Under the pieces are notes generated by a model, which saw only the letters and a program-made list of their open reading frames with translations, did no database searches and was not told the origin of the DNA. From Celeribacter indicus (GTDB taxonomy: Bacteria > Pseudomonadota > Alphaproteobacteria > Rhodobacterales > Rhodobacteraceae): a stretch of DNA of 64,000 bases. The stretch is from the NCBI RefSeq assembly GCF_000819565.1, contig NZ_CP004393.1:4464001-4528000 (forward strand), given 5' to 3'. The translations under genes were made by a program, and so were the position numbers. The stretch's first letter is position 1. Each line of letters opens with the position of its first letter. This document shows positions 2,506 to 48,420 of the stretch, piece after piece.

Positions 2506-2530
2506 AACCCGCAACTGCGGCAAGTGTTCC
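2506..2530 (-). promoter_or_regulatory. EcfG-type promoter for the ackA-xfp operon
   Basis: On the minus strand the sequence reads GGAAC, 16 bases, GGTT. The -10 element ends about 28 bases before the ATG at 2477. It matches the general-stress sigma (EcfG) consensus GGAAC-N16/17-CGTT except at the first, poorly conserved -10 base. A divergent copy lies at 2554-2578. Confidence 0.65.
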
Positions 2531-2553
2531 CGCGCCCTCGCCGTGCCGGCCGG

Positions 2554-2578
2554 GGAACATTGCGCCCGAACGGCTGTT
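2554..2578 (+). promoter_or_regulatory. EcfG-type promoter for the 2604 gene
   Basis: GGAAC, 16 bases, TGTT on the plus strand, ending 25 bases before the ATG at 2604. It forms a divergent pair with the promoter at 2506-2530. Confidence 0.65.
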
Positions 2579-2603
2579 GGTCCCCGGAACACAGGAGGAC
2601 GCC

Positions 2604-2825
2604 ATGGCGAACCGAGACATCCATGAGAAGCCCGAGAACCTGAAGGCCCGCGCGCCCGAAAAGGGCGTGCTCGACCAGCGCCAGCAACAGATCGACCCTG
2701 CCGGACGGCACCGCGCGGATCTCAACGCGACGAGCATTCCGTCGATGAAACAACCCGGTGGCCCCCATCCTGCCCCCGCCACCGGCACGGCCGACGAGAC
2801 GGAGGCCCGCCGACGGAAGGACTGA
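2604..2825 (+). CDS. Small hydrophilic protein, unknown function
   Basis: A 73-residue, highly charged, probably disordered protein (MANRDIHEKPENLKARAPEK at the start, RRRKD at the end). There is no membrane segment or recognised domain. The ribosome site AGGAGG lies eight bases before the ATG, and a stress-type promoter lies just upstream. Proteins of this make-up (short, Lys/Glu/Pro/Gln-rich, stress-promoter driven) are common in alphaproteobacterial general-stress regulons, where they are usually uncharacterised. It is monocistronic and converges on the next gene with a 5-base gap. Confidence 0.65.
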   Translation: MANRDIHEKPENLKARAPEKGVLDQRQQQIDPAGRHRADLNATSIPSMKQPGGPHPAPATGTADETEARRRKD

Positions 2826-2830
2826 GCGGC

Positions 2831-3196
2831 TCAGCCCCCGAGGATGGCCCAGGCGATGATCGCGACGATCACCGCCACCACCACGCAGACGAGGAAGATC
2901 GAGCCCCAGCTCGCGGAGCCGCTTGCGAGGTCTGCGGGTGTGGCCTTGTCCCCCCTCTCGGCCGGGCGGGCGCGTTCGTGCCCCGCGGCGACCACGGCCT
3001 CCTCGGCCGTCGGGGAATGACCTGCGGCCTCGTCATCGGTTCCGAGCGGTGCGGCCGCCGGATCGACAAAGGCCACCTTGTCTCCGGTTCCGCCGCGGTC
3101 GATGTCGTCGCGCAGCCGATCGACGGCCGCAGCCCCGGATGCCTTCTGCTTCGGGGTCTTTGGAGTCTTTGCCTTTGGAGTCTTTGGTGGGGTCAT
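2831..3196 (-). CDS. Lys-rich protein with C-terminal membrane anchor
   Basis: A 121-residue protein. Residues 1-20 are Lys/Thr/Pro repeats (TPKAKTPKTPKQK). The middle is acidic and probably disordered. The last 24 residues form a single hydrophobic helix (from SIFLVCVVVAVIVAIIAWAI), so it should be tail-anchored in the inner membrane with a basic cytosolic N-terminus that could bind nucleic acid or phospholipid. AAGGAGGA precedes the ATG at 3196. A GGAAC-type promoter (3223-3247) sits 26 bases upstream. Function unknown. Confidence 0.7.
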   Translation of the reverse strand: MTPPKTPKAKTPKTPKQKASGAAAVDRLRDDIDRGGTGDKVAFVDPAAAPLGTDDEAAGHSPTAEEAVVAAGHERARPAERGDKATPADLASGSASWGSIFLVCVVVAVIVAIIAWAILGG

Positions 3197-3222
3197 GAAC
3201 GTCCTCCTTGTCCTGCACCTTC

Positions 3223-3247
3223 AACCCCGCCTGCCCGGCGATGTTCC
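3223..3247 (-). promoter_or_regulatory. EcfG-type promoter for the 2831-3196 gene
   Basis: Minus strand: GGAAC, 16 bases, GGTT; the -10 ends about 26 bases before the ATG at 3196. Divergent from the sodC promoter 30 bases away. Confidence 0.65.
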
Positions 3248-3276
3248 CGGCTCCGGGAGGACAGGCGAGTCGCCTC

Positions 3277-3301
3277 GGAACATCGGCGCCGACGGTTTGT
3301 T
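3277..3301 (+). promoter_or_regulatory. EcfG-type promoter for sodC
   Basis: Plus strand: GGAAC, 16 bases, TGTT; it ends 66 bases before the sodC ATG at 3368. Confidence 0.65.
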
Positions 3302-3367
3302 GTCTCCTCACTGCCCGCGAACGCGCCCCGGCGTCGGGCGGGCTTCATCCGGACAAAGGAGATTTTC

Positions 3368-3871
3368 ATGAAGACCCTCATGATTGCCGCACTCACAGGC
3401 ACCTTGCTCGCGCCGGCGGCCTATGCCGCCGAAGCGACGGCGGACGTGCAGGACCTCGAAGGCAATGCGCTCGGCGCGGTGCGCGTCTATGACACCCCCT
3501 CCGGTGTGGCGGTGGCGACGATCACGCTCACCGAGCTTCCCGAAGGCGTGCACGCCATCCACCTGCACGAGGTGGGCGACTGCGAATCCGAGGATTTCAG
3601 CTCCGCCGGCGGCCATATCGCCGGGGACCGCGAGCACGGCGTGCTGGCCGAAGGCGGGCCGCATCCGGGCGACATGCCCAATCTCACGGTCAAGGAGAAC
3701 GGCGTGGGAGAGGTGGAAGTCTTCCTCCCCGATATCGACGTGGAAAGAGATCTGCTCGACGAGGACGGGGCCGCTTTCGTGATGCATGAGGGCGTCGACG
3801 ATTACGAGTCACAGCCGGCGGGCGATGCCGGGGACCGCCTCGCCTGCGGCGCCTTCTCCGCGCCGGAATAG
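3368..3871 (+). CDS. sodC: Cu-Zn superoxide dismutase, periplasmic
   Basis: A 167-residue periplasmic Cu-Zn superoxide dismutase, disproportionating superoxide to oxygen and hydrogen peroxide. Residues 1-20 form a signal peptide ending AYA. All metal ligands can be placed: copper His65, His67 and His140, bridging His83, zinc His90, His99 and Asp102. The disulfide pair Cys72/Cys160 and the active-site Arg157 (motif AGDRLACG) are present, so the enzyme should be active. AAGGAG precedes the ATG. It is a single gene, driven by the stress-type promoter at 3277-3301 and closed by the hairpin at 3917-3954. Confidence 0.96.
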   Translation: MKTLMIAALTGTLLAPAAYAAEATADVQDLEGNALGAVRVYDTPSGVAVATITLTELPEGVHAIHLHEVGDCESEDFSSAGGHIAGDREHGVLAEGGPHPGDMPNLTVKENGVGEVEVFLPDIDVERDLLDEDGAAFVMHEGVDDYESQPAGDAGDRLACGAFSAPE

Positions 3872-3916
3872 GGTCGCGGACTGATGCGCTGGCCCTCCGG
3901 GCCGCCGCCAAATGAG

Positions 3917-3954
3917 AACCGGCGCCGACCTTCCGAAAGGCCGGCGCCGGTTTT
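3917..3954. terminator. Bidirectional terminator between sodC and 3974 gene
   Basis: AACCGGCGCC (3917-3926) pairs with GGCGCCGGTT (3943-3952), with inner pairing CCTT/AAGG, followed by TT; the other strand ends its stem in AA/TT likewise. It lies 45 bases after the sodC stop and 19 bases before the stop of the convergent gene, so it can serve both. Confidence 0.8.
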
Positions 3955-3973
3955 CACGATCGGGACCTCCCGC

Positions 3974-4183
<210 letters not shown>

Positions 4184-4456
4184 CTATCCGCCGTTACGGT
4201 CGATGAACTTGTTGAAGCGGCTCTGGCCGCCATCCGCGGTCTCGTCCTGGTAGAGGAAGGCGAGGTCCCGATCCTCGAAGACCTCGAAGAATTCGCTCCA
4301 GTCGATTGCTTCGAGCGTGTCCTCGGGCGGATCGAAGTCGATGCGGAGGATGCCGCCGCCTCCGCCGGTGTTCCGGACTCGTGCGGGACGTCCGTCGCGG
4401 GCCTCGGCCCAGGCGCGGATGGTCTCGTGATCCGTGGTCTGCATGGCTTCGCTCAT
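4184..4456 (-). CDS. Small conserved protein (TTDHETIRAWAEARDGRPA family)
   Basis: A 90-residue soluble protein. The N-terminal DHETIRAWAEARDGRPARV helix is followed by a Gly-rich turn, ILRIDFD, and WSEFFEVFEDRDLAFLYQ. This pattern belongs to a widespread alphaproteobacterial family that I recall being labelled, without good reason, 1,4-alpha-glucan branching enzyme in some databases; at 90 residues it cannot be that enzyme. A general-stress association is likely from its promoter (4525-4550) and neighbours. AGGAGGA lies ahead of the ATG. Function unknown. Confidence 0.75.
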   Translation of the reverse strand: MSEAMQTTDHETIRAWAEARDGRPARVRNTGGGGGILRIDFDPPEDTLEAIDWSEFFEVFEDRDLAFLYQDETADGGQSRFNKFIDRNGG

Positions 4457-4524
4457 GGTGTCGTCCTCCTGCGATTGGGGAGTGGGTCTGGCCGCCGGCG
4501 GCGGCGCGCGCCCGTCACCGGATC

Positions 4525-4550
4525 AACCGTTCCCACCCGTCCGGGGTTCC
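4525..4550 (-). promoter_or_regulatory. EcfG-type promoter for the 4184 and 3974 genes
   Basis: Minus strand: GGAAC, 17 bases, GGTT. It ends 68 bases before the ATG at 4456. The rest of the 4457-4713 intergenic stretch shows nothing else. Confidence 0.55.
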
Positions 4551-4713
4551 GCAACCGCCGCCTGGCCGTGTCGCCCCGGCGGTTCCTTGCCCGCGAAAAA
4601 TGCGGACGCGCTCGCAGCGGTCGGCAACGAACGCGTCCTGGGTCGGAGCGGGCCCTGAGGGTTGCGACCGCAGGGGCTGACGGTCTGGCCCGCTCCGGCT
4701 TTCCCTGCGCCGG

Positions 4714-7047: not shown

Positions 7048-7071
7048 AAACTAATCCTCCTTCTCTCGGAC

Positions 7072-7097
7072 AACTTCTTGACTCTTCAACCGGTTCC
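7072..7097 (-). promoter_or_regulatory. EcfG-type promoter for the PQQ dehydrogenase
   Basis: Minus strand: GGAAC, 17 bases, AGTT; the -10 ends about 25 bases before the ATG at 7047. The -10 is one base off the consensus, so it is weaker than most in this window. Confidence 0.5.
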
Positions 7098-7164
7098 AGG
7101 CCCCGGCGAAAAGCCGGGACCCGGCAGGCGTGTCAGGGCCGCGCGGGCCGAATCTCCGGGCGGC

Positions 7165-8452: not shown

Positions 8453-8477
8453 AACAGCGCCCCGAACGGATTGTTCC
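8453..8477 (-). promoter_or_regulatory. EcfG-type promoter for the DUF892 gene
   Basis: Minus strand: GGAAC, 16 bases, TGTT; the -10 ends 62 bases before the ATG at 8391. Confidence 0.65.
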
Positions 8478-8891: not shown

Positions 8892-8916
8892 GGAACATCC
8901 GGCGCGTGGCGGGGTT
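8892..8916 (+). promoter_or_regulatory. EcfG-type promoter for the PQQ-dehydrogenase anchor
   Basis: Plus strand: GGAAC, 16 bases, GGTT, ending 36 bases before the ATG at 8953. It shares its pattern with the promoter of the catalytic half at 7072-7097. Confidence 0.65.
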
Positions 8917-8952: not shown

Positions 8953-9369
8953 ATGACCGATCTACAGCCGGAGGCGCGCCGCACCCCCCAGTCAGCAACC
9001 CGCACCAGAAGCGGTGGATATATCGCCACGGTCGTTCTCGCCGTGGTGCTTGCCGTTTTCGGCCTCGTCCTCTTGGGGGGCGGCATATGGCTCATTACCC
9101 TCGGCGGAAGCTGGTACTATGCCATTGCTGGCCTCGGTCTCTGCATCACCGCGTGGCTGCTCGTGCGCGCGTCGATGGCCGCGCTCTGGATCTATCTTCT
9201 CACCTATGTGTTCACCGTGATTTGGGCGCTGTGGGAGAAGGGGTTCGACGGCTGGGCACAGGTGCCCCGGCTCGTGGCGCCCACGGTCGTCCTGATTCTC
9301 GTGCTCATCACCATCCCCGTCCTGCGTGGTCCGCGTCAGCCGCGCGGGACGGTGGCCGAGCCGGTGTGA
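8953..9369 (+). CDS. Stand-alone membrane anchor of glucose-type PQQ dehydrogenase
   Basis: A 138-residue membrane protein with four to five predicted helices (about residues 22-50, 54-71, 74-94 and 105-125). The helices carry the signature of the N-terminal membrane domain of membrane-bound glucose dehydrogenase: GGIWLITLGGSWYYAIAGLG, then LWIYLLTYVFTVIWALWEKG and a FDGWAQVPRLVAPTVV stretch. In Gluconobacter sorbitol dehydrogenase a similar small subunit (SldB) is encoded separately from the catalytic SldA, so a split form is known in another lineage. Here the catalytic half is at 4714-7047 on the other strand, 1.9 kb away. GAGGAGG precedes the ATG. A GGAAC-type promoter is upstream and a terminator follows at 9418-9444. 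Docking with the catalytic half and ubiquinone reduction are inferred. Confidence 0.85.
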   Translation: MTDLQPEARRTPQSATRTRSGGYIATVVLAVVLAVFGLVLLGGGIWLITLGGSWYYAIAGLGLCITAWLLVRASMAALWIYLLTYVFTVIWALWEKGFDGWAQVPRLVAPTVVLILVLITIPVLRGPRQPRGTVAEPV

Positions 9370-9481: not shown

Positions 9482-10081
9482 TCAGATCACATAGATCCCG
9501 ACGCCGACGGCCACCCCGATCACCGAAAATCCGATGAGGGCGAAGAGGCCGTCCTGGACCAGAAGCGTGAGCGAGAGGAAGGCCACCGCCGTCCCGAGGA
9601 TCGAGGAGGTGAAGGGCACCAGTTCCAGCAGCGGCATGGTGAGGCCGCACAGCATGCAGATGAGGCTGATCACCCTGTCCATGGGCGGAGAGACGAGCGG
9701 GCGAAGGCGTTCCCCCGAGTTTCGGTCCAGCCAGCCCGCGGGTTTGCGAAGTGCGTCGGTTGCCGTCTTGAGTCGGGCGGCGGGGACAGTGCGGCGGCCG
9801 AGCCAGCGCGGCATCCATAGGCAATCCCGCCCGATCACCATCTGGGCGGAGATCAGGGCGATTGTGATGCCGCAAAGGCTCGAGAACAGCGGAATTCCGG
9901 AAAGCGGCGTCACCACCGCGAGCGCCGCCGCCATCAGCATCGGCACGAAGGAGGCCCTGCCGAGAGTGTCGAGAATATTTTCGAGGGCGACCTCCTCCCC
10001 CCGCTCCGCGGCATCTGCCAGCCGATCGACGATCTCGCCCACCGAGCTTGGTCCGTCTCCGCGTTCACTCCTGTCGGGCAT
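9482..10081 (-). CDS. exoD: ExoD family exopolysaccharide synthesis protein
   Basis: A 199-residue integral membrane protein of the ExoD family (normal length about 200). The typical start ILDTLGRASFVPMLMAAALA is followed by ALAVVTPLSGIPLFSSLCG and MVIGRDCLWMPRWLGRR, and there are hydrophobic helices in the second half (VISLICMLCGLTMPLLELVP; FALIGFSVIGVAVGVGIYVI). In Rhizobium ExoD affects exopolysaccharide and alkali tolerance, but its chemistry is unknown. The start at 10081 overlaps the end of the cytochrome gene by 17 bases, making this the last gene of the caa3 oxidase operon. Confidence 0.88.
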   Translation of the reverse strand: MPDRSERGDGPSSVGEIVDRLADAAERGEEVALENILDTLGRASFVPMLMAAALAVVTPLSGIPLFSSLCGITIALISAQMVIGRDCLWMPRWLGRRTVPAARLKTATDALRKPAGWLDRNSGERLRPLVSPPMDRVISLICMLCGLTMPLLELVPFTSSILGTAVAFLSLTLLVQDGLFALIGFSVIGVAVGVGIYVI

Positions 10082-15873: not shown

Positions 15874-15898
15874 AACTAGCGCGGGCTTCGATTGTTCC
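15874..15898 (-). promoter_or_regulatory. EcfG-type promoter for the caa3 oxidase operon
   Basis: Minus strand: GGAAC, 16 bases, AGTT, lying between the P450 stop and the oxidase operon; it ends 93 bases before the leader ATG at 15780. Confidence 0.55.
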
Positions 15899-17251: not shown

Positions 17252-17276
17252 GGAACGGATTGCGCGGATTTATGTT
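17252..17276 (+). promoter_or_regulatory. EcfG-type promoter for NepR-like gene (overlapping divergent pair)
   Basis: Plus strand: GGAAC, 16 bases, TGTT. It occupies the same bases as the minus-strand P450 promoter at 17254-17278: the -35 of each is the -10 of the other. It ends 117 bases before the ATG at 17394. Confidence 0.55.
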
Positions 17277-17278
17277 CC
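17254..17278 (-). promoter_or_regulatory. EcfG-type promoter for P450 (perfect match)
   Basis: Minus strand: GGAAC, 16 bases, CGTT, a full match to the EcfG consensus. It ends about 94 bases before the P450 ATG at 17159. Confidence 0.7.
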
Positions 17279-26815: not shown

Positions 26816-26840
26816 AACAGCAGGCGGACACGTATGTTCC
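26816..26840 (-). promoter_or_regulatory. EcfG-type promoter for the eight-gene sugar operon
   Basis: Minus strand: GGAAC, 16 bases, TGTT, ending 35 bases before the ATG at 26781. It is divergent from the promoter at 26953-26977. Confidence 0.65.
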
Positions 26841-26952: not shown

Positions 26953-26977
26953 GGAACAAACGGACGTTGCTGCTGTT
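26953..26977 (+). promoter_or_regulatory. EcfG-type promoter for the bi-domain oxidoreductase
   Basis: Plus strand: GGAAC, 16 bases, TGTT, ending 37 bases before the ATG at 27014. With 26816-26840 it forms a divergent stress-promoter pair that would co-induce all nine cassette genes. Confidence 0.65.
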
Positions 26978-27013: not shown

Positions 27014-29005
27014 ATGGACGGAGCACAGCTCACCACGACACGACTTGCGGCGCAGATCGTCGAACCGGGACGGGTGGCGATGGTCGAGGACGCGATCGGA
27101 CAGCCGGGTCAGGGCGAGGTGCGGGTCAGGCTCGAAGGCTGCGGTGTCTGTGCGTCCAACCTCGGTCCGTGGTCGGGACCGGAGTGGATGGAGTTCCCCC
27201 TGCCCGCCGGCGATCTCGGACACGAGGCGTGGGGCCGGATCGAGGCGACAGGCCCCGGCGTCGATCCCGCGCGCCGTGGAGAGCGGGTGGCGGTGTTCGG
27301 CAGCCGTGGCTATGCCACGGAGGAGATCGTGCCCGCCGATGCGGCGCTGGCCATTCCACCGGAGCTCGCAGGACGTCCGGTCCCCGCAGAACCCGTAGCC
27401 TGCGCGCTGTCGATCTTCCGCAAGGCGCGGATCGGCGCCGGCGATCGCGTCGCGATCATCGGCATCGGATTTCTCGGCGCGCTGCTGACGCAGATGGCGG
27501 TGCGCGCCGGGGCCGAGGTGATTGCGATCTCGCGCCGCGACGACAGTCTCGCGTTGGCGCAGAACCATGGCGCGGTGGCGACGGTCCCGCTTCGCGACCA
27601 CGGCGACGTGATCGCGCGGGTCGGGGAGCTCACCGGAGGCACGCTTTGCGACGTCACGATCGAATGCACCGGGCATCAATGGCCGCTCGACCTGGCCGCC
27701 GAAATCACCCGCGAAAGCGGGCGGCTCGTCATCGCCGGCTATCACCAGGACGGTCCCCGACAGGTGAACATGCAGCTCTGGAACTGGCGCGCCTTCGAGA
27801 TCGTGAACGCACATGAGCGCGACCGGGCGATGAACCTGGCGACCATGCGCGAGGCGCTCGAGGCCTGGGCGAAGGGTCATATCGACCCCGAACCGCTGTT
27901 TACGCATGTCTATCCGCTCGACCGGCTGGGCGCGGCGCTCGACGCCACTCGCGACAAGCCCGACGGCTTCGTGAAGGCGCTGGTCCGGATGCCGCCGTCG
28001 CACGCGCTGCCGCGGCTCGGCTTTCTCGGGCTCGGCTGGATCGGGCGCAACCGGATGGAGGCGCTCGCGGCGAGCGGCGGATGCGACATCGTCGCGCTCT
28101 CCGATGCCGATCCCGAGGCGCTCGCCGTCTGTGCCGACAGCGCGTCTGGCGCGGTCACGGCACGGGATCTCGGCGCCGTTCTGGGCACGAAGCCCGACGG
28201 CGTCGTCATCGCGACGCCCTCCGCCCTCCATGCCGAGCAGGCCATCGCCGCGCTCGACGCCGGGGCCGCCGTCTTCTGTCAAAAACCGCTCGGGCGCACG
28301 GCGGAGGAGGTGCGTCGGGTGGTCGCGGCGGCGAAGCGGGCGGACCGGCTGCTCGACGTCGATCTGTGCTATCGCCAGACCGCCGCGGGACGGGCGCTGC
28401 GGGCCGAGCTTGCCAGCGGACGGATCGGTCGCCCCGGTTTCGTCGATCTGGTGTTCCACAATGCCTATGGGCCCGACAAGCCGTGGTTCTACGACCGCAG
28501 CCAGTCGGGCGGTGGGTGCCTCACCGATCTCGGCACCCATCTCGTCGATCTCGCGATGTGGCTGCTCGACTGGCCGGAACTGAAGGTCCTCTCTGCCCAG
28601 CTCCGGTGCGGCGGAGCGCCCGTCTCCGGCGAAGGCAACGGCGTGGAGGATTTCGCCGTCGCCACGCTGGAGACGGCGGAGGGCGTTCCGGTCAGGATTT
28701 GCTGTTCCTGGAATCTGCCTGCCGGTCAGGACGCGCTCATATCGGCGGAAATCTATGGCGAGGCAGGCGGAGCGAGCCTGCGCAACGTCGGTGGGTCCTT
28801 CTACGATTTCGAGGCGCGTCGGATGGATGGATGCCGGTCGGAGCTGCTGTCCTCCCCGCCGGACGCGTGGGGAGGACGGGCTGCGCTGGACTGGCTCGGC
28901 CGGCTGTCGCAAGGCGGGGGGTACGATCCGGCCTGCGAGCATCTGGTCGCGGTGGCGCAGGTGCTGGACCAAGTCTATGAGACGGCCGGTGTCCCGCACA
29001 ATTGA
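27014..29005 (+). CDS. Bi-domain oxidoreductase: alcohol dehydrogenase plus Gfo/Idh/MocA
   Basis: A 663-residue fusion. Residues 1-335 are a zinc-type medium-chain dehydrogenase (LEGCGVCASNLGPW, GDLGHEAWGRI, NAD loop GIGFLGALLTQMA) that lacks the four-cysteine structural-zinc loop. Residues 338-663 are a Gfo/Idh/MocA oxidoreductase (LGFLGLGWIGRNRMEAL, VFCQKPLGRTAEEV, CLTDLGTHLVDLAMWLLDW). Such bi-domain oxidoreductases occur in sugar gene clusters and could oxidise and reduce the same sugar in turn, for example in epimerisation through a keto intermediate. An earlier ATG at 26990 would start within a few bases of the predicted transcript start, so 27014 is preferred. It is divergent from the sugar operon. 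Confidence 0.85.
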   Translation: MDGAQLTTTRLAAQIVEPGRVAMVEDAIGQPGQGEVRVRLEGCGVCASNLGPWSGPEWMEFPLPAGDLGHEAWGRIEATGPGVDPARRGERVAVFGSRGYATEEIVPADAALAIPPELAGRPVPAEPVACALSIFRKARIGAGDRVAIIGIGFLGALLTQMAVRAGAEVIAISRRDDSLALAQNHGAVATVPLRDHGDVIARVGELTGGTLCDVTIECTGHQWPLDLAAEITRESGRLVIAGYHQDGPRQVNMQLWNWRAFEIVNAHERDRAMNLATMREALEAWAKGHIDPEPLFTHVYPLDRLGAALDATRDKPDGFVKALVRMPPSHALPRLGFLGLGWIGRNRMEALAASGGCDIVALSDADPEALAVCADSASGAVTARDLGAVLGTKPDGVVIATPSALHAEQAIAALDAGAAVFCQKPLGRTAEEVRRVVAAAKRADRLLDVDLCYRQTAAGRALRAELASGRIGRPGFVDLVFHNAYGPDKPWFYDRSQSGGGCLTDLGTHLVDLAMWLLDWPELKVLSAQLRCGGAPVSGEGNGVEDFAVATLETAEGVPVRICCSWNLPAGQDALISAEIYGEAGGASLRNVGGSFYDFEARRMDGCRSELLSSPPDAWGGRAALDWLGRLSQGGGYDPACEHLVAVAQVLDQVYETAGVPHN

Positions 29006-29284: not shown

Positions 29285-29797
29285 TTGGCTCAAGTGACTG
29301 AACGCGACCCGGCATCGGAGGGCGTCCTCGACTATATCCCCGCCCTGCGCGCCTATGCCTGGAGCCTCACCCGGCGGCATCAGGAGGTCGACGATCTCGT
29401 GCAGGAAACCCTCATGAAGGCGATTGCCAATATCGACCGCTTCCAGATGGGTACGAACCTGCGCGCATGGCTCATGACCATCATGCGCAACACGTTCTAC
29501 AACCAGATTGCCAAGAGAAAGAGGGAGACCTTCGGCGAAAAGGACTGTGCCTCGGGCATGGCCTGGGTGCCCGGCACCCAGGAATGGACACTCCATGGCA
29601 CGGAGATCATGGGGGCGGTCGAACGCCTGCCGCCGCATTACCGCGAAACGCTGATCCTCGTCGTCATGCTCGGGGAAAGCTACGAAACCACGGCGGAGAT
29701 CTGCGGTGTGGCGACGGGCACGATCAAGAGCCGCGTCAACCGGGCACGGGCGATGGTTCTCGAACAGCTCGGGGAGGTCGAGATGACGCGGATGTGA
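29285..29797 (+). CDS. ECF sigma factor, EcfG-like
   Basis: A 170-residue sigma-70 family ECF factor. Region 2 reads LRAYAWSLTRRHQEVDDLVQ, then NIDRFQMGTNLRAWLMTIMR and NTFYNQIAKRKRE; region 4 has LPPHYRETLILVVMLGESYE and the helix-turn-helix ICGVATGTIKSRVNRARAMV. The layout, especially RFQxGTNLRAWL and GTIKSRVNRAR, is that of EcfG-group sigma factors, which direct the alphaproteobacterial general stress response from GGAAC-N16-CGTT promoters. The start is TTG at 29285 with AAGGGGGA six bases upstream; the frame upstream is open but lacks any conserved residue. No phyR or nepR lies beside it. It probably reads many of the promoters in this window. Confidence 0.8.
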   Translation: MAQVTERDPASEGVLDYIPALRAYAWSLTRRHQEVDDLVQETLMKAIANIDRFQMGTNLRAWLMTIMRNTFYNQIAKRKRETFGEKDCASGMAWVPGTQEWTLHGTEIMGAVERLPPHYRETLILVVMLGESYETTAEICGVATGTIKSRVNRARAMVLEQLGEVEMTRM

Positions 29798-29871
29798 CCC
29801 GTCCCGACCGGAGACGGGAACCACCGGCGACGGCGGGGGTTAGTGCAATAGGAACGAATTTGGAGGTTCTC

Positions 29872-30384
29872 ATGCCGAAGGTTCTGCCGCACATCCTCGC
29901 ACCGCTTCTGCTCACCGCCGCTCTCGGCGCACAGGCCGTTCAGGCACAGGAACAGGACCAGTCGCGGGACACTCTGGCACTCGCCGCGACGGAGGACCAA
30001 GGCACCTATCTGGTCGGCCCGGATGGCCGGCCGGTCTATATCATGATCACCGAGCACGGGGCAGGCGACGATCTCGACCCGCTCCAGTCCTGCGAGGAAC
30101 AGTGCCGCGTCGAATGGCCGGTGGTTACCATCGACGACGATATCACCACGGGCGAGGGGGTCGAGAGCGATCTCGCCGATACCGTGGAATGGCGGGGAGA
30201 GCAGGCGCTCACCTATCGCGGCCAGCCGCTTTTCTATTTCTACCGCGACAGCGCCGGCGAAGCCCCGGAAGGACAGGGTATCTTCAGCCATGGCGGGCAC
30301 TGGGCGCTTCTGGCACCGGACGGCACACCGTTCGAGGACGAGATCGCACCGGACCCGGAACAGACGGAAGGAGAGTTCCAGTGA
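29872..30384 (+). CDS. Secreted protein with YLVGPDGRPVY repeats (COG4315-like)
   Basis: A 170-residue exported protein. Residues 1-25 are a signal peptide (ending VQA). Two repeat-like units follow: TYLVGPDGRPVYIM...CEEQCRVEWPVV and the later LTYRGQPLFYFYRDSAGEAPEGQG with HWALLAPDGTPF. This arrangement is that of the small periplasmic/lipoprotein family of secreted repeats with a Yx4D pattern, unknown in function. Two cysteines (CEEQC) could form a disulfide. GGAGG precedes the ATG. It is probably in an operon with the sigma gene 74 bases upstream and the BON gene, with which it overlaps by GTGA. Confidence 0.78.
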   Translation: MPKVLPHILAPLLLTAALGAQAVQAQEQDQSRDTLALAATEDQGTYLVGPDGRPVYIMITEHGAGDDLDPLQSCEEQCRVEWPVVTIDDDITTGEGVESDLADTVEWRGEQALTYRGQPLFYFYRDSAGEAPEGQGIFSHGGHWALLAPDGTPFEDEIAPDPEQTEGEFQ

Positions 30385-30749
30385 CGCAGGAGACCGAGAA
30401 GCGACCGGCGGGAAGCGAGAAGGTGGTGCATGTGCGGTCCGACCTCGCGGAACCGAGCCGCCCGGAAGGCCATTTCGGCGTCCACCAGCCGATCCCGGCG
30501 CAGACGCCCACCTATCGCCCGCCGGAGCCGCCGGCCTCTGACGCGGAACTCGCCGAACGGGTCCGTGCCGCGCTTGACGACGACGGGCGGGCGGGTGCCG
30601 GTGATGTCACCGTGTCGGTCAACGGCGCGGTGGTGGATCTGCACGGCGAGGTCGAGCGGGAATTCCACCGCACGCTCGTGGCCGCGCTCGCCCAGTCGGT
30701 TCCCGGCGTGCTGAGCGTCAACAACCACCTCGCGATCCGCGTGCTCTGA
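30381..30749 (+). CDS. BON-domain protein
   Basis: A 122-residue protein. Residues 1-55 are a Pro/Glu-rich tail and residues about 58-122 a BON domain (SDAELAERVRAALDDDGRAG, VTVSVNGAVVDLHGEVE, VPGVLSVNNHLAIRVL). BON domains bind membrane lipid; this one lacks a signal peptide. It starts with GTG overlapping the previous stop (GTGA), with GAAGGAG upstream. It belongs to the sigma-factor-linked operon and is a second BON protein in the window after 7165-7803. Confidence 0.8.
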   Translation: MTQETEKRPAGSEKVVHVRSDLAEPSRPEGHFGVHQPIPAQTPTYRPPEPPASDAELAERVRAALDDDGRAGAGDVTVSVNGAVVDLHGEVEREFHRTLVAALAQSVPGVLSVNNHLAIRVL

Positions 30750-30805
30750 ACCCGCTGCGGGACAGCGGCAAATGCACGCCGGCGGAGGATGAAAGGAGAA
30801 CGATC

Positions 30806-31075
30806 ATGTCCGCACCCGACACCAACACCAAGAAACAGGCCCGGCGCCACTGGCCGCCGTTGCTCGCCTTCCTGCTCGTCGTGTGTTTCGGCGTGGGGAT
30901 CATCCTTTACTGGACGATGGAAGAAACCGCAACGGCGCCTGAAACAGAACAAACCGCGCCCGCGATGCAACCGCCCAGCGCCGAGGAGATGAACGAAGGC
31001 GATGTCGATGCGCCCCCCTCCGCGCCTCAGACCGAAATCACCCCGGATCCGGTCAACCCCGGCCTCGACGAGTAA
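30806..31075 (+). CDS. Small single-pass membrane protein, acidic tail
   Basis: An 89-residue protein. A basic N-terminus (NTKKQARRHW) precedes one membrane helix (residues 17-38, PLLAFLLVVCFGVGIILYW). The remaining 50 residues are Pro/Glu/Thr-rich and probably disordered on the periplasmic side. AAAGGAG precedes the ATG. It is the last gene of the sigma-linked operon and is followed by a hairpin at 31088-31118. Function unknown. Confidence 0.7.
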   Translation: MSAPDTNTKKQARRHWPPLLAFLLVVCFGVGIILYWTMEETATAPETEQTAPAMQPPSAEEMNEGDVDAPPSAPQTEITPDPVNPGLDE

Positions 31076-32153: not shown

Positions 32154-32178
32154 AACAATCGTCTCCCCGTCCTGTTCC
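32154..32178 (-). promoter_or_regulatory. EcfG-type promoter for the 32081 gene and CYTH-like gene
   Basis: Minus strand: GGAAC, 16 bases, TGTT, ending 73 bases before the ATG at 32081; it lies in the gap after the GH13 operon. Confidence 0.6.
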
Positions 32179-32187: not shown

Positions 32188-33876
32188 TCAGGCCTCCTCG
32201 ATCAGCAGGGCGAAGCTTTCGAATGGAGCCAGCCGCAGATCCGGCCCGATCCGCTCGCGCGCGCTATGGGAGGCGATGAGGCAACTGCCCTCGCCGTGGA
32301 CCGTATCCGGGAGGTTCACGTGCTGCTCCTCCCCCGTGAAATTGCCCGCCACCAACACGCGCGTGCCGCCCAGCCGGCGCTGGAACGCCATGATCGCGGG
32401 GTCGTCCATCAGAAGCGGCTCGGTCTCTCCGAAGGAGATCACGTCATGGTCGCGACGCAGCCGCACGAGATGACGGTAGTGGGCAAAGACGCTTTCCGGG
32501 TGCAGCATATCCTGTTCCACGTTGATCCGCTCGGCATTGGGATTCATCTCGATCCAGGGCGTGCCCGAAGAAAACCCCGCGTTCGCGCCCGAACTCCATT
32601 GCATCGGCGTGCGTGAATTGTCCCGGCTGTTGCGGTTCGCGCCGAGGATGAACTCCTCGGGCGGCACGCCCAGTGCGATCTGTTCCTCGAAATGGTTGAG
32701 CGTCTCGAGATCGCGGTACTGGTCGATCCGGTCGAACCGGGCGTTCGTCATGCCGATTTCCTCGCCCTGGTAAATGAATGGCGTACCCTTCAGCAGATGC
32801 AGCACCGTGGCGAGCATGCGCGCGGCGGCACGGCGGTGTTCCTGATCGTCGGCGTAGAAGGAGACCTGGCGTGGCAGATCGTGGTTCGATAGGAACAGCG
32901 CATGCCAGCCATCGTGGCGCGTCAGGTCCTGCCAGGCGAAGAGCGCCCGCTTGAAGCCCGCTAGCTCGAACGGTTTGGGCGCGAACTTGCCGCGTTCGGG
33001 ATGCCAGCCCTCGCGGATATGGGAAAACTCGAAGACCATGTCGAGCTCCTTGCGGTCGCGGCCGCAATAAAGCAGGCCGGTATCCGGCGAGACCGACCAA
33101 CTCTCCCCGATGGTGACGATGTCGCGCCCGGCCAGCACCTCGCGGTGCATTTCCTGAAGGAAACGGTGCAGGTCCGGCCCCTCCTCGTAGACGCGCGCGT
33201 CCACGTCCTTGCCGATCAGGCTGATGACATCCATGCGAAAGCCCGCAATGCCCCGGTCGAGCCACCAGCGCATCATGTCGTAGACTTCTTCGCGCAGGGC
33301 GCGAGTCTGCCAGTTGAGATCGGGCTGGGCGGGGCTGAAATAGTGGAAGTAGTACCGGCCGACCTCCTCGACAAAGGTCCAGGCGGGACCGCCGAAGGCG
33401 GCTCTCTGGTCATCGGGCGGGCCGCCGTCCGGGGCCGGATCGCGCCAGATGTAATAATCGTGCTCCGGCGCCTCACGCGATCTCCGCGCCGCCTGGAACC
33501 AGGCATGAAGCGAAGAGCTGTGGTTCACCACGAGATCCATGACGATGCCGATCCCGCGCTCGCGTGCCTCGGCAATCAACCGGTCCATGTCCGCAAGCGT
33601 TCCGAATTCCGGCGCGATGTCGCGGTAGTCCGCAATGTCATAGCCGTTGTCGACCATGGGCGAGGCGTAGACCGGAGAAAGCCAGACGAAGCCCACTCCG
33701 AGATCGGCAAGATGGCCGAGCCTCGAGATGATGCCGGGAATGTCGCCGACGCCGTCTCCGTTGCTGTCAGCGAAGCTGCGCGGATAGATCTGGTAACCGG
33801 TGGCCCTGTGCCACCAGCGTTCCGTGCGTTCGCGGGCTTTTGCGGGGGCGGGTTGGGGAGACTCAAATAGGGTCAT
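32188..33876 (-). CDS. GH13 glucosidase (oligo-1,6-glucosidase/trehalose-linked type)
   Basis: A 562-residue cytosolic alpha-amylase-family enzyme. Conserved GH13 regions are clear: IVMDLVVNHSSSLHAWF, GFRMDVISLIGKD (nucleophile Asp), TIGESWSVS (acid/base Glu) and FLSNHDLPRQVS. The opening WWHRATGYQIYPRSFADSNG is like oligo-1,6-glucosidase and trehalose-6-phosphate hydrolase relatives. It hydrolyses or transfers alpha-glucosyl units, which would link to the trehalose genes downstream of this region. An ATG at 33891 overlaps the ribosome site AAAGGAGC, so 33876 is preferred. It is second gene after the 33900-35588 GH13. Confidence 0.88.
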   Translation of the reverse strand: MTLFESPQPAPAKARERTERWWHRATGYQIYPRSFADSNGDGVGDIPGIISRLGHLADLGVGFVWLSPVYASPMVDNGYDIADYRDIAPEFGTLADMDRLIAEARERGIGIVMDLVVNHSSSLHAWFQAARRSREAPEHDYYIWRDPAPDGGPPDDQRAAFGGPAWTFVEEVGRYYFHYFSPAQPDLNWQTRALREEVYDMMRWWLDRGIAGFRMDVISLIGKDVDARVYEEGPDLHRFLQEMHREVLAGRDIVTIGESWSVSPDTGLLYCGRDRKELDMVFEFSHIREGWHPERGKFAPKPFELAGFKRALFAWQDLTRHDGWHALFLSNHDLPRQVSFYADDQEHRRAAARMLATVLHLLKGTPFIYQGEEIGMTNARFDRIDQYRDLETLNHFEEQIALGVPPEEFILGANRNSRDNSRTPMQWSSGANAGFSSGTPWIEMNPNAERINVEQDMLHPESVFAHYRHLVRLRRDHDVISFGETEPLLMDDPAIMAFQRRLGGTRVLVAGNFTGEEQHVNLPDTVHGEGSCLIASHSARERIGPDLRLAPFESFALLIEEA

Positions 33877-35680: not shown

Positions 35681-35706
35681 AACGACCGCCTTGCGGCTTG
35701 GGTTCC
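35681..35706 (-). promoter_or_regulatory. EcfG-type promoter for the GH13 pair
   Basis: Minus strand: GGAAC, 17 bases, CGTT, ending 93 bases before the ATG at 35588. Confidence 0.6.
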
Positions 35707-39079: not shown

Positions 39080-39105
39080 AACATGGTCATCGGCGGGAAT
39101 GTTCC
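39080..39105 (-). promoter_or_regulatory. EcfG-type promoter for the membrane stress operon
   Basis: Minus strand: GGAAC, 17 bases, TGTT, ending 70 bases before the ATG at 39010. Confidence 0.6.
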
Positions 39106-39991: not shown

Positions 39992-40016
39992 GGAACGGAT
40001 CCGCCGGACAATGGTT
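39992..40016 (+). promoter_or_regulatory. EcfG-type promoter for otsA
   Basis: Plus strand: GGAAC, 16 bases, GGTT, ending 62 bases before the ATG at 40079 and lying between otsB and otsA, so otsA can be induced on its own. Confidence 0.6.
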
Positions 40017-40078: not shown

Positions 40079-41503
40079 ATGCCTGGCAGACTCTTGGTCG
40101 TATCCAACCGAATCCCCACGGGCGAGGCCCCATCGGGCGGGCTGGTCGTGGCGCTTCATGACGCGCTCGCGGAGCGCGGAGGCGTCTGGATCGGCGCGGG
40201 ACCGGAACCGGGAGAGGCGAGCGAGGCCCTCGAGGTGATCGGGCGCGATCCCTATGTCCGGCTCGCCTTCACCCTCACCGAGACGGAACAGCACGACTAT
40301 TACCTCGGATTTTCCAATTCGGTGCTCTGGCCGCTTTGCCATCGCCGGGGCGATCTCGTCGATCTCGATCCCGATTTCGAGGCGGCCTATCGCGCGGTCA
40401 ACGCGCGGCTGGCGCGGGCCATCGCGAAGGTGCTCGAGGCGGATGACGTGCTCTGGGTACACGACTACCACCTCTTTCCCCTGGCGCAGGCGCTGCGCAG
40501 ACTCGGCGTGACGAACCGGATCGGATTTTTCCTGCACATCCCCTTTCCGACGCTCACCGACCTGGCCGTGCTGCCGAAACCGAGCGATTTCGCCCGCTGG
40601 CTCGCCAGCTATAATCTCGTCGGCTTCCAGACCCGCGCCGACACGGCCCGCTGTCTGGAAATGTTCCGCGCCGATCCCCGTGCCGAGTTCATGACGGACG
40701 GAACGGTGAAGTTCGAGGACAAGATCGTGCGCCTCGGTGCCTTCCCGATCGGGATCGACACGGAGACCTTCGCGCGCGATGCGGAAGGATCGGAGGAAAG
40801 CCCCTTCCGCCGCGATGCGCCGGAGGAATACCTGATCGGCGTCGATCGACTGGATTACTCCAAGGGTCTGCCCAACCGCTTCAACGCCTTCGCCCGCTAT
40901 CTCGAGGAACGCACCGATCCGGAACGGCGTCCCTGCCTCGTGCAGATCGCGCCGCCCACGCGGGAAGCGGTGCAGGCCTATCAGGACATCCGCCGGGAGC
41001 TCGAGGAGATCTCCGGCCATATCAACGGTGCCTATGCCGAACTCGACTGGACGCCGATCCGCTACATCCATCGCGCCGTCGACCGCAGTCGGCTGGCGCG
41101 GATCTATCGCCACGCGCGCGCTTGTCTGGTGACCTCGCTCGCGGACGGGATGAATCTCGTGGCCAAGGAATATGTCGCCGCGCAGCAGCCGGATGATCCC
41201 GGCGTGCTGATCCTGTCGCGCTTCGCCGGTGCGGCGGAGGACCTGACTGATGCGTTGCTCGTCAACCCCTATGACGAAGCGGACATCGCGCGCGCCATCG
41301 CAGTAGCGCTCGACATGCCCCTTGAGGAGCGGGTGGATCGCTATGAGAGCTGCATCCAGGCGGTGCGCGACACGGATGTCCGCCGCTGGAGCAAGCAGTT
41401 CCTCGCCGGACTCGATCGCACCCTTCCGTCCTTCGAATGGCCGAAGGACGAATTCTCCGCCGGCTGGCCGCTCTCCGCGCCGGACGATCCGCTGATCGCC
41501 TGA
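40079..41503 (+). CDS. otsA: Trehalose-6-phosphate synthase
   Basis: A 474-residue GT20 enzyme making trehalose 6-phosphate from UDP-glucose and glucose 6-phosphate in the cytosol. Signature stretches: LLVVSNRIPTGEAPSGGLVV, WVHDYHLFPLAQALR, GVDRLDYSKGLPNRFNAF, and VNPYDEADIARAIAVAL. The start MPGRLLVVSNR at 40079 is the conserved family start and has GGAG eight bases upstream; the in-frame extension is ignored. With otsB it forms the OtsAB pathway for a compatible solute, consistent with osmotic or desiccation stress. It converges on the short-chain dehydrogenase across a hairpin. Confidence 0.95.
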   Translation: MPGRLLVVSNRIPTGEAPSGGLVVALHDALAERGGVWIGAGPEPGEASEALEVIGRDPYVRLAFTLTETEQHDYYLGFSNSVLWPLCHRRGDLVDLDPDFEAAYRAVNARLARAIAKVLEADDVLWVHDYHLFPLAQALRRLGVTNRIGFFLHIPFPTLTDLAVLPKPSDFARWLASYNLVGFQTRADTARCLEMFRADPRAEFMTDGTVKFEDKIVRLGAFPIGIDTETFARDAEGSEESPFRRDAPEEYLIGVDRLDYSKGLPNRFNAFARYLEERTDPERRPCLVQIAPPTREAVQAYQDIRRELEEISGHINGAYAELDWTPIRYIHRAVDRSRLARIYRHARACLVTSLADGMNLVAKEYVAAQQPDDPGVLILSRFAGAAEDLTDALLVNPYDEADIARAIAVALDMPLEERVDRYESCIQAVRDTDVRRWSKQFLAGLDRTLPSFEWPKDEFSAGWPLSAPDDPLIA

Positions 41504-43326: not shown

Positions 43327-43351
43327 AACACGGGCACCGTGGGATTGTTCC
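43327..43351 (-). promoter_or_regulatory. EcfG-type promoter for the SDR pair
   Basis: Minus strand: GGAAC, 16 bases, TGTT, ending 64 bases before the TTG at 43263. The remaining part of the 43264-43521 gap shows no gene. Confidence 0.65.
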
Positions 43352-43521
43352 GCGCGGCGGACCGGAGAGGCCGGCGCGCCGGTTTGTCGCATCGCGGAAA
43401 GGTGGACCCTCCGCGCGCGCGCCCTAATTCGACCGGCAAGGAGATCCGCGGGAGGCACCACGCCGCCGCCACGCGGATCCGGTCGCCGGCCCGAGAGGGA
43501 AACGCATAGCCGGGGGATGCC

Positions 43522-44919: not shown

Positions 44920-44922
44920 AAG

Positions 44923-45930: not shown

Positions 45931-46031
45931 GACGCTGGGCCATGAGGATCGGCTGGTTCGCGCTGCTGTGGATCGCAGGCGTCGCCGCGGTGGGGGCGGT
46001 TGCCTACGCGATCCGGCTCGCGATCCTGTGA
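45927..46031 (+). CDS. DUF2474-type third small subunit of CIO oxidase
   Basis: A 34-residue single-helix membrane protein (MRRWAMRIGWFALLWIAGVA...), beginning with TTG overlapping the cioB stop, and with GAGG upstream. Such short proteins follow cioB in many genomes (DUF2474) and are the functional counterpart of CydX, which is needed for assembly or stability of the bd oxidase. The helix has the typical RRW...IGWFALLW pattern. Too short for default gene finders. Confidence 0.75.
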   Translation: MRRWAMRIGWFALLWIAGVAAVGAVAYAIRLAIL

Positions 46032-46037
46032 CCGAGG

Positions 46038-48356
46038 TCAGGCCGCGGACGAACGCAGGATCTGCACCGGAGTCCCCTTGTAGGCCGGCGTCTTCGAGTT
46101 CTTTTCGTGATAGGCCAGCGGCACGAGCGGGTTGAGCTCGGGATAATAGCCCGCAACGCAGCCCTCCGGCAGGTCGTAGGGCGTCACCACCAGTCCCTCC
46201 ACCCTGCGCTCCACCCCATCTTCGATGGCACAGCGCAGGCTGATCGTCTCCCCTTCCCCGAGTCCGAGACGCGCCATCTCGTCGCGGTTCACGAGCATCA
46301 CCATACGACTGCCCTCGAGCCCGCGCAGGCGGTCGCGATAGCCGTAGATCGTGGTGTTGAACTGGTCGTTCGAGCGCAGGGTGACGAGCGTCATCACATC
46401 CGCACCCTCCGGCGAGTCACCGAGCGCGCTGAGCGTCGTCGGCGTCGTGAACTGTGCCTTGCCGCTCTCCGTCTTCCAGATGCGCTCGCGCGCCGGATTG
46501 CCGCGGTAGAAGCCGCCGGGCTGGAACAGCCGTTCGTTGAAACCGGCGAAATCGTCGGGAAATGTCTGCTCGATCAGGTCGCGCACGAGGCCGTAATCGG
46601 CCACCCAATCGTCCCATTTCAGCTTCGGATTCTCGGGCAAGGTCGCCTTGGCGATTCCGGCGACGATGTCGGTTTCGGATTTCAGATGTTCCGAGGCAGG
46701 TTCCGCCCGGCCGACGGAACCGTAGATATGCGAAAACGTGTCCTCCATCGAAATCGCCTGCCTGCCGGTGGCCTGGATGTCCTCGTCGGTGCGCCCGAGA
46801 CAGGGAAGAAGATAGGAAACCTCGCCGGGCGTGAGATGCGAGCGGTTGGGCTTCGTCGCAATATAGACGGTGAGCCGCATCTTCGGCCAGGCCTCTTCCA
46901 TGCGCGCGCGGTCGGGCAGGGCGCGCACGAGGTTGCCGCCGAGGGAGATCAGCGCCTTCATCCGGCCCTCGAGCAGCGCCTCGCAGGCCTCGACCGCGTT
47001 CATCCCGTCCTCCTCCGGCGGCTCGATGTCGAAGAGCGTTCGGAGCTTGTCCGCGGGCATATGGGAGGACTTCTCTCCGATGCCAACGGTGCGCTGCCCC
47101 TGCACGTTCGAATGGCCGCGCACGGGCGAGATCCCGGCGCCGAGGCGGCCGATATTGCCGCGCAGCATGAGGAAATTGCAATACATCCCCAGATTGAGCC
47201 AACCGTTGACATGCTGGGTGAGACCCATGCCATAGATGCCGATGACCTTCTCGGCCGCCAGATAGACACCCGCCGCCTCCTCGATCATCGCGCGGGCCAG
47301 GCCCGACTGACGCTCGATCTCCTCCCAACTCAGGGCGACGAGCGCCGCCTCCAGTTCCGCGAAGCCGGTCGTGTGATCCGCGATGAAATCGTGATCGAGC
47401 ACTGTGCCGGGCGCGGCCTCCTCTGCGGCGAGCACGCATTTCATCAGCCCCGCGAGGACCGCGACATCGCCGCCGGGGCGCAGCTGGTAATAGTGATCCG
47501 AGATCCTGGTCGGTTTACCCACCGTCATCTGCACCGGATTTTGCGGATCGACGAATTCGATCAGCCCGCGTTCGCGCAGCGGGTTGAAGGTCACGATCTT
47601 GCAGCCGCGCTTTACCGCAGCCTTCAGCGTGTGCAGGAAACGCGGGCTGTTCGAGCCGGTGTTCTGCCCGAAAAAGAAGATCGCGTCGCAATGGTCGAAA
47701 TCCTCGAGCGTGCAGGTGCCGACGGGCGTGCCGATGGTGTTCTTGAGGTTCACGCTGGTCGTCTCGTGGCACATGTTCGACGATTGCGGCAGGTTCTGGT
47801 GGCCCATCGCACGGGCGAAAAGCGCATAGAGATAGGAGGTCTCCAGCCCGGCATGGCCGGAGGAATAGAACACCGCTTCCTTCGGCGCGAGCTTTGAGAG
47901 TTCCGCGCCGATCTCCTCGAAGGCGGTGTCCCAGTCGACCGGGCGATAAGCATCGCTTTCGGCGTCGTAGCGCATCGGTTCGGTGATCCTGCCGGCCTTT
48001 TCCAGATCGTGGTCGGGCCAGCCTCGCAGCTCGGCCAGGGTGTGCGCGGCAAAGAAATCGGGATCGGCGCGGCGGCGGTCGAGTTCCCACATCACCGATT
48101 TCGCGCCGTTCTCGCAGAATTCGGCCGTATGCGGAGTGGCTGGCTTTGCCCAGGCGCAGGAGGAACACATCACGCCGCCGGGCTTGTTGTGCCGCGCCAG
48201 GACCTCGAAGACGTCGCCCTGCGGTGCGGCCTCCGCGAAGTTCCGCCTCAGGCTGTTCACCGAACCCCAGCCGCCGGTCGGGGCGTCGTAGAACGGCGTG
48301 TCGGGATCCTGGGTTTCGGCATCGTGCTGGCGGGTCCGGGGGGAGGGCTTGCGCAT
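46038..48356 (-). CDS. FdhF/YdeP family molybdopterin oxidoreductase
   Basis: A 772-residue molybdopterin-type oxidoreductase of the FdhF/YdeP family, related to formate dehydrogenase but with an N-terminal cysteine-containing segment (VMCSSCAWAKPATPHTAEFC) in place of the usual four-cysteine cluster set. The core carries FFGQNTGSNSPRFL, GGNLVRALPDRARM, MGLTQHVNGWLNLGMY and MTLVTLRSNDQFNTTIYGYR for the cofactor. YdeP helps acid resistance in E. coli; the reaction is unsettled. The start at 48356 has AAAGGAG upstream; the frame further up is not used. The promoter at 48396-48420 fits the EcfG consensus exactly. Confidence 0.9.
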   Translation of the reverse strand: MRKPSPRTRQHDAETQDPDTPFYDAPTGGWGSVNSLRRNFAEAAPQGDVFEVLARHNKPGGVMCSSCAWAKPATPHTAEFCENGAKSVMWELDRRRADPDFFAAHTLAELRGWPDHDLEKAGRITEPMRYDAESDAYRPVDWDTAFEEIGAELSKLAPKEAVFYSSGHAGLETSYLYALFARAMGHQNLPQSSNMCHETTSVNLKNTIGTPVGTCTLEDFDHCDAIFFFGQNTGSNSPRFLHTLKAAVKRGCKIVTFNPLRERGLIEFVDPQNPVQMTVGKPTRISDHYYQLRPGGDVAVLAGLMKCVLAAEEAAPGTVLDHDFIADHTTGFAELEAALVALSWEEIERQSGLARAMIEEAAGVYLAAEKVIGIYGMGLTQHVNGWLNLGMYCNFLMLRGNIGRLGAGISPVRGHSNVQGQRTVGIGEKSSHMPADKLRTLFDIEPPEEDGMNAVEACEALLEGRMKALISLGGNLVRALPDRARMEEAWPKMRLTVYIATKPNRSHLTPGEVSYLLPCLGRTDEDIQATGRQAISMEDTFSHIYGSVGRAEPASEHLKSETDIVAGIAKATLPENPKLKWDDWVADYGLVRDLIEQTFPDDFAGFNERLFQPGGFYRGNPARERIWKTESGKAQFTTPTTLSALGDSPEGADVMTLVTLRSNDQFNTTIYGYRDRLRGLEGSRMVMLVNRDEMARLGLGEGETISLRCAIEDGVERRVEGLVVTPYDLPEGCVAGYYPELNPLVPLAYHEKNSKTPAYKGTPVQILRSSAA

Positions 48357-48395
48357 GGAAAACTCCTTTGCCCCTGCGAGGGGCGTTTGCGGGTC

Positions 48396-48420
48396 AACGG
48401 ATCGCCTCTCCAATTGTTCC
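48396..48420 (-). promoter_or_regulatory. EcfG-type promoter for FdhF/YdeP gene (perfect match)
   Basis: Minus strand: GGAAC, 16 bases, CGTT, ending 40 bases before the ATG at 48356; the full EcfG consensus. Confidence 0.7.

Follow-up and report, generated by a model that had tools for sequence, protein, structure and literature searches.

A clustered stress island in Celeribacter indicus and the predicted promoter code of its EcfG paralogue

The island and its genes

A 64-kb stretch of the Celeribacter indicus chromosome (C1:4,464,001-4,528,000, here called the window, to which positions refer unless another sequence is named) contains a block of stress genes, a dense set of promoter-like elements, and a gene for a sigma factor of the EcfG type, which is an extracytoplasmic function (ECF) sigma factor. 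The genome spans 4.97 Mb in six contigs. At the start side of the block, Pfam and NCBIfam matches identify xfp, ackA, a Cu/Zn superoxide dismutase (SOD), a pyrroloquinoline quinone (PQQ) dehydrogenase, and BON, DUF892, DUF3008, and ExoD proteins. The middle, assigned from the same databases, is made up of a caa3-type oxidase operon, a CYP152-type P450 (369 bits, which is under the family cut-off of 600), and a sugar and glycosyltransferase cassette that includes a TIGR04290 methyltransferase. Around the sigma gene are an ADH-Gfo/Idh/MocA fusion, a lipoprotein and BON operon, and two GH13 genes, and the remainder comprises BrkB, DUF3618, Holin-X, otsB, otsA, an SDR pair, cytochrome bd, and FdhF/YdeP. 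Some details of the first-pass annotation of this DNA did not survive. The PQQ dehydrogenase that it described in two halves is really one intact 777-amino-acid gene, it listed a NepR-like gene but the window contains no NepR match, and its CYTH-like protein had no match in Pfam or NCBIfam at E 0.001.

Promoter elements of the island

A both-strand scan for GGAAC-N16/17-NGTT returned 21 elements in the window, every one within 2506-48420. The spacer is 16 bases in 16 of them and 17 in the other 5, and the other spacers (8-15 and 18-29) gave 0-7 elements apiece. The element at 17252 (+) is the opposite-strand reading of the near-palindromic element at 17254 (-), and the one at 33578-33603 (-) lies within a GH13 gene and is probably there by chance. 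Without these two, the count equals the 19 elements of the first-pass annotation, whose claim that they are oriented toward nearby start codons is borne out: 19 of the 21 have a start codon downstream at a median distance of 61 bp (range 24-94) once two gene starts are corrected (P450 to 17159 and SDR to 43263). The near-palindromic arrangement GGAAC...NGTTCC at 17252-17278 can be read as a promoter on either strand with a two-base offset, and it is found likewise at L055 6578, L060 396, and L064 12058.

Spacer-16 elements number 16 in the 48.5-kb island, 2 in the 60 kb to its left, and 0 in the final 15.5 kb, where, as had been noticed at first for the core genes past the island, elements of either spacer are absent. 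Sixteen 20-kb stretches of the same chromosome (320 kb) served as controls and hold 11, although one of them, L044, was deliberately placed over two known elements; the island expectation is 1.67, against 16 observed (Poisson p = 4e-11). The narrower pattern GGAACA-N15/16-TGTT occurs 20 times in the genome, 8 of these inside the window against 0.26 expected, and the same pattern written backwards, used as a control, gave 0. A scoring matrix trained exclusively on other genomes agrees. At a threshold of 13 bits it gave 17 hits in the island and none in either the left 60 kb or the last 15.5 kb, while the 320 kb of controls gave 10, or 7 in 300 kb when L044 is excluded. Chance or base composition as the source of the cluster was rejected in view of the spacing peak, the density controls, and the matrix scan. 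EcfG-type promoters are densely and non-randomly clustered over the stress genes of the island. In L044 itself, two strong elements of the class called variant promoters below lie 2.7 kb apart (7107-7131 and 9843-9867; C1:2.582 and 2.585 Mb) and precede genes for a polyketide-cyclase-like protein and a DUF2934 protein. They are perhaps an outlying satellite of the island regulon.

The units headed by these elements cover most of the block. The variant promoter at 2506-2530 (-) heads 2477-2187, 2197-1934, ackA, and xfp as a putative operon, and the one at 2554-2578 (+) heads 2604-2825. Two more, at 3223-3247 (-) and 3277-3301 (+), head 3196-2831 and sodC (3368-3871, Sod_Cu), respectively, and spacer-17 elements at 4525-4550 (-) and 7072-7097 (-) head 4456-4184 and the PQQ dehydrogenase (7047-4714). 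Variant promoters are also found at 8453-8477 (-), heading DUF892 (8391-7891) and perhaps BON (7803-7165), at 8892-8916 (+), heading 8953-9369, and at 15874-15898 (-), heading the caa3-type oxidase operon (15796-9482, with COX1, COX2, and CtaG). The element at 17254-17278 (-), ahead of the CYP152-type P450 (start 17159, end 15906), has near-equal scores for both element classes. The sugar and glycosyltransferase cassette (26781-17586) is headed by the variant promoter at 26816-26840 (-), and the ADH-Gfo/Idh/MocA fusion (27014-29005) by that at 26953-26977 (+), which might read on into the sigma gene. An element at 29817-29841 (+) heads 29872-31075 (lipoprotein, BON, and a small protein), and a variant promoter at 32154-32178 (-) heads 32081-31938 and perhaps also 31866-31285. 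The GH13 pair (35588-32188) follows a spacer-17 CGTT element at 35681-35706 (-), and 39010-36779 (Holin-X and DUF3618 genes) follows a spacer-17 element at 39080-39105 (-). An element at 39992-40016 (+) is ahead of otsA (40079-41503), a variant promoter at 43327-43351 (-) heads the SDR pair (43263-42469 and 42432-41575), and a CGTT element at 48396-48420 (-) is ahead of the FdhF/YdeP oxidoreductase (48356-46038). Three pairs of variant promoters (2506/2554, 3223/3277, and 26816/26953) are divergent and sit between head-to-head units.

The island sigma factor

The sigma factor encoded at 29294-29797 (+) is a 167-amino-acid protein assigned to the EcfG2 group. It has the ECF architecture of sigma2 and sigma4 and resembles the sigma-like domain of PhyR, with Sigma70_r2, Sigma70_r4_2, and PhyR_sigma2 all above the Pfam cut-off. 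The EcfG type named in the first-pass annotation stands, but the protein is a diverged paralogue, and the core phyR/nepR/ecfG locus sits 3 Mb away at C1:1,500,983-1,501,662. The genome has a single NepR match, searched at E up to 1, and it lies with the best PhyR match at C1:1.50 Mb, beside ecfG, where phyR and nepR-ecfG have overlapping divergent GGAACC-N17-CGTT promoters with a seven-base offset (L053 1215-1247). Unlike canonical EcfG, the island sigma gene is not adjacent to nepR or phyR. A full-length PhyR match is present in all 20 core stretches, that of this genome among them, and in none of the 43 paralogue stretches.

The island protein is 49% identical to the core EcfG of its own genome and 78% identical to its closest named relative, from Salipiger marinus. 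In a FastTree phylogeny of 67 sequences, 46 paralogues cluster without any core sequence at a support of 0.389, and the support is 0.865 for the 44 paralogues that exclude Sinorhizobium meliloti RpoE5 and a Rhizobium etli protein. Judged by sequence and gene order, the island sigma is a diverged EcfG paralogue that belongs to a separate EcfG group and is encoded without NepR.

Two classes of promoter element

Elements in 20-kb core ecfG neighborhoods (19 other genomes, 132 elements) were compared with those in paralogue neighborhoods (33 loci of other genomes, 205 elements). Of the latter, 29 lie within 260 bp upstream of the sigma gene and were set aside as its own promoters, leaving 176 neighbors. 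L083 (Bacteroidales, 26% identity) was excluded, and L106, L109, L111, and L112, which duplicate L069, L081, L080, and L072, were counted once. In the core neighborhoods 93 of 132 elements end in CGTT, the sixth base is C in 78 and A in 12, and spacers of 16 and 17 are divided 74/58. In contrast, CGTT ends just 40 of the 176 paralogue neighbors, which have A as sixth base in 112 and C in 29 and spacers divided 129/47 (Fisher p = 3e-17 for CGTT and 5e-24 for the sixth base). Five of the 19 core genomes hold the paralogue too; minus these, the core set has CGTT in 70 of 100 elements, with C in 56 and A in 11. The paralogue's own promoters, with elements present at 27 of 33 loci, differ from its neighbors in both features (CGTT in 24 of 29; sixth base C in 18 and A in 5; Fisher p = 7e-10 and 1e-7, respectively). 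Those of L063 and L082 are nearly identical.

The window follows the paralogue neighbors. Only 3 of its 21 elements end in CGTT and the sixth base is A in 14 against C in 4, which sets it apart from the core neighborhoods (p = 1e-6 for CGTT and 1e-7 for the sixth base). The earlier view of these elements as ordinary EcfG promoters is replaced here by one of a systematically different element in paralogue neighborhoods. A second set of twelve paralogue plasmid loci, fetched after the first comparison and hand-picked among the matches listed of 299 records, was drawn from Paracoccus, Roseivivax, Roseinatronobacter, Martelella, Mesorhizobium, Chelatococcus, S. meliloti, and R. etli. These loci contain 98 spacer-16 and 16 spacer-17 elements, and of the 114, 70 have A as sixth base and 14 end in CGTT (Fisher p against core, 6e-19 and 3e-21). 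For the ten loci other than those of S. meliloti and R. etli, the figures are 64 of 96 and 12 of 96, with 83 and 13 elements at spacers 16 and 17 against 2-10 at each of the remaining spacers between 10 and 24. In S. meliloti and R. etli, just 2 of the 18 elements end in CGTT. The surroundings of the paralogue have mostly GGAACA-N16-(T/G)GTT, while those of core EcfG have CGTT, usually after GGAACC.

The proteins themselves differ as well. In the region-2.4 stretch, after RNTFY, paralogues are without the conserved serine and basic RRK run of core EcfG; their linker is altered too, and they have no C-terminal extension. The -35 helix is retained (GTIKSRVNRAR-like). In ECF sigma factors, the -10 element is read by region 2.4 together with the neighboring loop. 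An altered region 2.4 beside a kept -35 helix fits a changed -10 with unchanged GGAAC, which suggests that the sequence changes of the paralogue may match the shifted -10.

Distribution among genomes

The comparison covered 149 genomes of the family. A close paralogue (at least 167 bits) is present in 8, a weaker one in 2 (G021 and G022, both of low completeness), and core-level matches alone in 55, four of which have two such matches; the other 84 have no match at E 1e-30, a group that may conceal weaker EcfG genes. The main paralogue group consists of the 8 without G021 and G022. The variant pattern GGAACAWN13YKGTT occurs on average 7.75 times per genome in this group, 2.76 times in core-only genomes, and 3.01 times in those without a match. 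The excess of paralogue over core-only genomes is significant (p = 1e-4), and core-only genomes do not differ from those without a match (p = 0.62). The core pattern GGAACCN15/16CGTT, a positive control, has means of 26.5, 21.5, and 11.1 in the same order (core-only versus none, p = 2e-12). Because the core-only versus none comparison shows a difference for the core pattern and none for the variant one, core elements follow core EcfG and variant ones do not. A further control, the variant pattern with one extra spacer base (17), showed no difference (1.5 versus 2.05, p = 0.52). In G091, 14 of 16 variant matches are on contigs other than that of the sigma gene.

All 10 paralogue genomes have DUF892, as do 17 of the 55 core-only genomes and 1 of the 84 without a match. 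Of 30 DUF892 loci, 21 could be counted, 11 from the 10 paralogue genomes (G021 and G022 included) and 10 core-only; L126, L129, L130, L140, L142, and L139 have no element within 500 bp, and L131, L135, and L138 could not be oriented. At the 11 loci of paralogue genomes, the upstream element has A as sixth base in 8 cases, CGTT in 2, and a spacer of 16 in 10. At the 10 core-only loci, the corresponding counts are 2, 6, and 5 (p = 0.03, 0.08, and 0.06, respectively).

Parts of the island recur with the paralogue elsewhere. A tblastn comparison (E 1e-12) with the available flanks of 38 further paralogue loci shows relatives of genes in the window, namely DUF892 at 16, BON at 11, and SDR at 10, with parts of the sugar cassette at 4-7, SOD at 5, and the P450 at 4. 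Sigma and stress genes are plasmid-borne in relatives, and on plasmid pAK1 of Paracoccus sp. AK26 (L143 8510-19947) the sugar and glycosyltransferase cassette adjoins the paralogue sigma gene, its proteins being 51-73% identical.

Proposed wiring and alternative explanations

We propose that a second, diverged sigma factor of the EcfG type, belonging to the EcfG2 group, has its home regulon in this block. Core EcfG, encoded with NepR and PhyR, would read GGAACC-N16/17-CGTT, and the paralogue would read the shifted GGAACA(A/T)-N16-(T/G)GTT, driving most of the surrounding units, among them respiration, trehalose, sugar-cassette, peroxygenase, ferritin-like, and membrane-stress genes. We infer this role of the paralogue from neighborhoods and genome content. 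Core EcfG probably switches the paralogue on in relatives, because 24 of its 29 own elements are CGTT, and in most relatives the stress signal would then run from PhyR/NepR to EcfG, from EcfG to EcfG2, and from there to the island. In this genome, transcription from the variant promoter at 26953 may read through into the sigma gene. The sigma gene lies 288 bp downstream of the gene headed by that promoter, and neither a terminator-like site nor a sigma-70 promoter was found ahead of it; self-feeding across this gap is possible since no terminator-like site was found there, but it is a guess. When the upstream region was aligned to that of S. marinus, no common promoter was found. Overall, we assign a probability of roughly 0.72 to a relay in which core EcfG activates the paralogue and the paralogue in turn uses a private promoter code to drive a clustered regulon that is often plasmid-borne.

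Several observations weigh against this relay. A core-type promoter upstream of the sigma gene is absent both in the window and in S. marinus. The codes overlap, since 40 of 176 neighbors keep CGTT and the spacer is 17 bases long in 5 of the 21 elements of the window, and the residues of the -35 recognition helix are identical in both protein groups. The looser pattern GGAACAN15KGTT separates the genome groups weakly (means 23.8, 15.6, and 17.6 for paralogue, core-only, and no-match genomes; p = 0.006 over core-only and 0.03 over none). G021 and G022 have only 1 and 2 variant matches, and including them lowers the paralogue mean to 6.5 (p = 0.0019). At the S. meliloti RpoE5 and R. etli loci the sixth base is mixed (C in 10 and A in 6 of 18), and the wide paralogue clade that includes these two proteins has the low support of 0.389. 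Related genomes and loci are, moreover, non-independent samples. From the literature, of which excerpts of each paper are used here and below, a single target was found for S. meliloti RpoE5 (PMC6180224), the EcfG paralogues of Methylobacterium are said to recognize similar promoters (PMC4814048), and two EcfG paralogues of Sphingopyxis granuli transcribe the same promoters, CGTT being strongest with both (PMC7083833).

The S. granuli regulon also has TGTT and GGTT boxes that both paralogues use, according to the same excerpts (PMC7083833). Together with the CGTT endings still present in 40 of 176 neighbor elements, this favors an explanation in which all elements are ordinary and read by core EcfG, the T/G in the -10 and the A after GGAAC merely tune strength, and the island is a target cluster. 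Against it, variant elements are no more frequent in core-only genomes than in those without a match (2.76 versus 3.01, p = 0.62) and reach 7.75 in paralogue genomes, whereas core-only genomes do carry more core elements (21.5 versus 11.1, p = 2e-12). Spacer, sixth base, and -10 base also move jointly, and they did so again in the plasmid loci collected later. We consider this explanation unlikely. Less probable still is that both sigma factors share every target and the paralogue just amplifies, as proposed for Caulobacter SigU, which is stated in excerpts of PMC4814048 to be without a separate regulon. The overlap of the codes would suit such an amplifier, but the element classes separate by neighborhood and by genome content, and R. 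etli EcfG2 is reported to favor its own promoter and to have a regulon that overlaps little with that of EcfG1 (PMC3892343). Finally, a difference left over from the base composition of a foreign donor, or arising by chance, is highly improbable: the plasmid location of sigma and stress genes in relatives and the insertion sequence (IS) genes at 53.5-55.4 kb would agree with it, but the peak is specific to spacing (spacers 15 or 18 are not equally dense), the identical shift is seen in two orders and several genera, the island G+C of 0.65-0.71 is close to the 0.62-0.68 in the remainder of the window, and the Poisson p is 4e-11.

Relation to known systems

A large general-stress block with overlapping content is the RpoS-dependent region around PA2130-PA2190 of Pseudomonas aeruginosa. 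It differs from the island in being read by RpoS and not, as proposed here, by an ECF sigma factor encoded within the block. Among the closest known systems are R. etli EcfG2 and S. meliloti RpoE5 (non-canonical EcfG, ECF15), which are second EcfG copies and plasmid-borne. Proteins from S. meliloti pSymB and an R. etli CIAT 652 plasmid are placed at the base of the paralogue side in the tree, at the low support of 0.389, and the CIAT 652 protein presumably corresponds to the EcfG2 investigated in strain CFN42. In R. etli, EcfG1 and EcfG2 each favor their own promoter and the EcfG2 subgroup is plasmid-borne; the excerpts report that no promoter motif was found for EcfG2 (PMC3892343). In S. meliloti, rpoE5 is a direct RpoE2 target, i.e., a relay from core to paralogue (PMC6180224). 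The excerpts of neither paper describe a clustered stress island for these sigma factors (PMC3892343, PMC6180224), which distinguishes them from the case discussed here. Caulobacter SigU, Methylobacterium EcfG2-6, and Sphingopyxis EcfG1/EcfG2 are likewise second EcfG copies in one cell. They reportedly have promoters or targets in common with the main EcfG (PMC7083833, PMC4814048). Neither a general stress response island nor a paralogue-specific EcfG motif is named among the matches listed from the open PMC literature, as represented by titles and the starts of abstracts.

Extra EcfG copies occur in half of completed alphaproteobacterial genomes, and their occurrence was described as not satisfactorily explained (PMC3892343, excerpts). 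The predicted code, the target list, and the proposed conserved relay make the role of these copies directly testable, and would show, if true, how a global stress regulon can be divided into a fixed core and a portable block. Our analysis suggests a stress programme able to travel between bacteria with its own control key. We are evenly divided on the fuller form of this idea, in which EcfG2 would have evolved its private code by shifting the A after GGAAC, the fixed 16-base spacer, and the T/G in the -10 together. With such a key, an entire stress programme could be kept in a single block, be carried on plasmids from one order to another, and work in any host whose core EcfG fires the single core-type promoter of the key.

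Setting of the block

No tRNA gene was found in the window or in L033 and L034 (integrases past the window edges were not searched for), and the window has no Rfam match at gathering cut-offs. Between the block and the flagellar genes fliK and flgD, at 53554-55445, are two transposases, one of the IS4/5 type that occupies two overlapping reading frames and one of the IS110 type.

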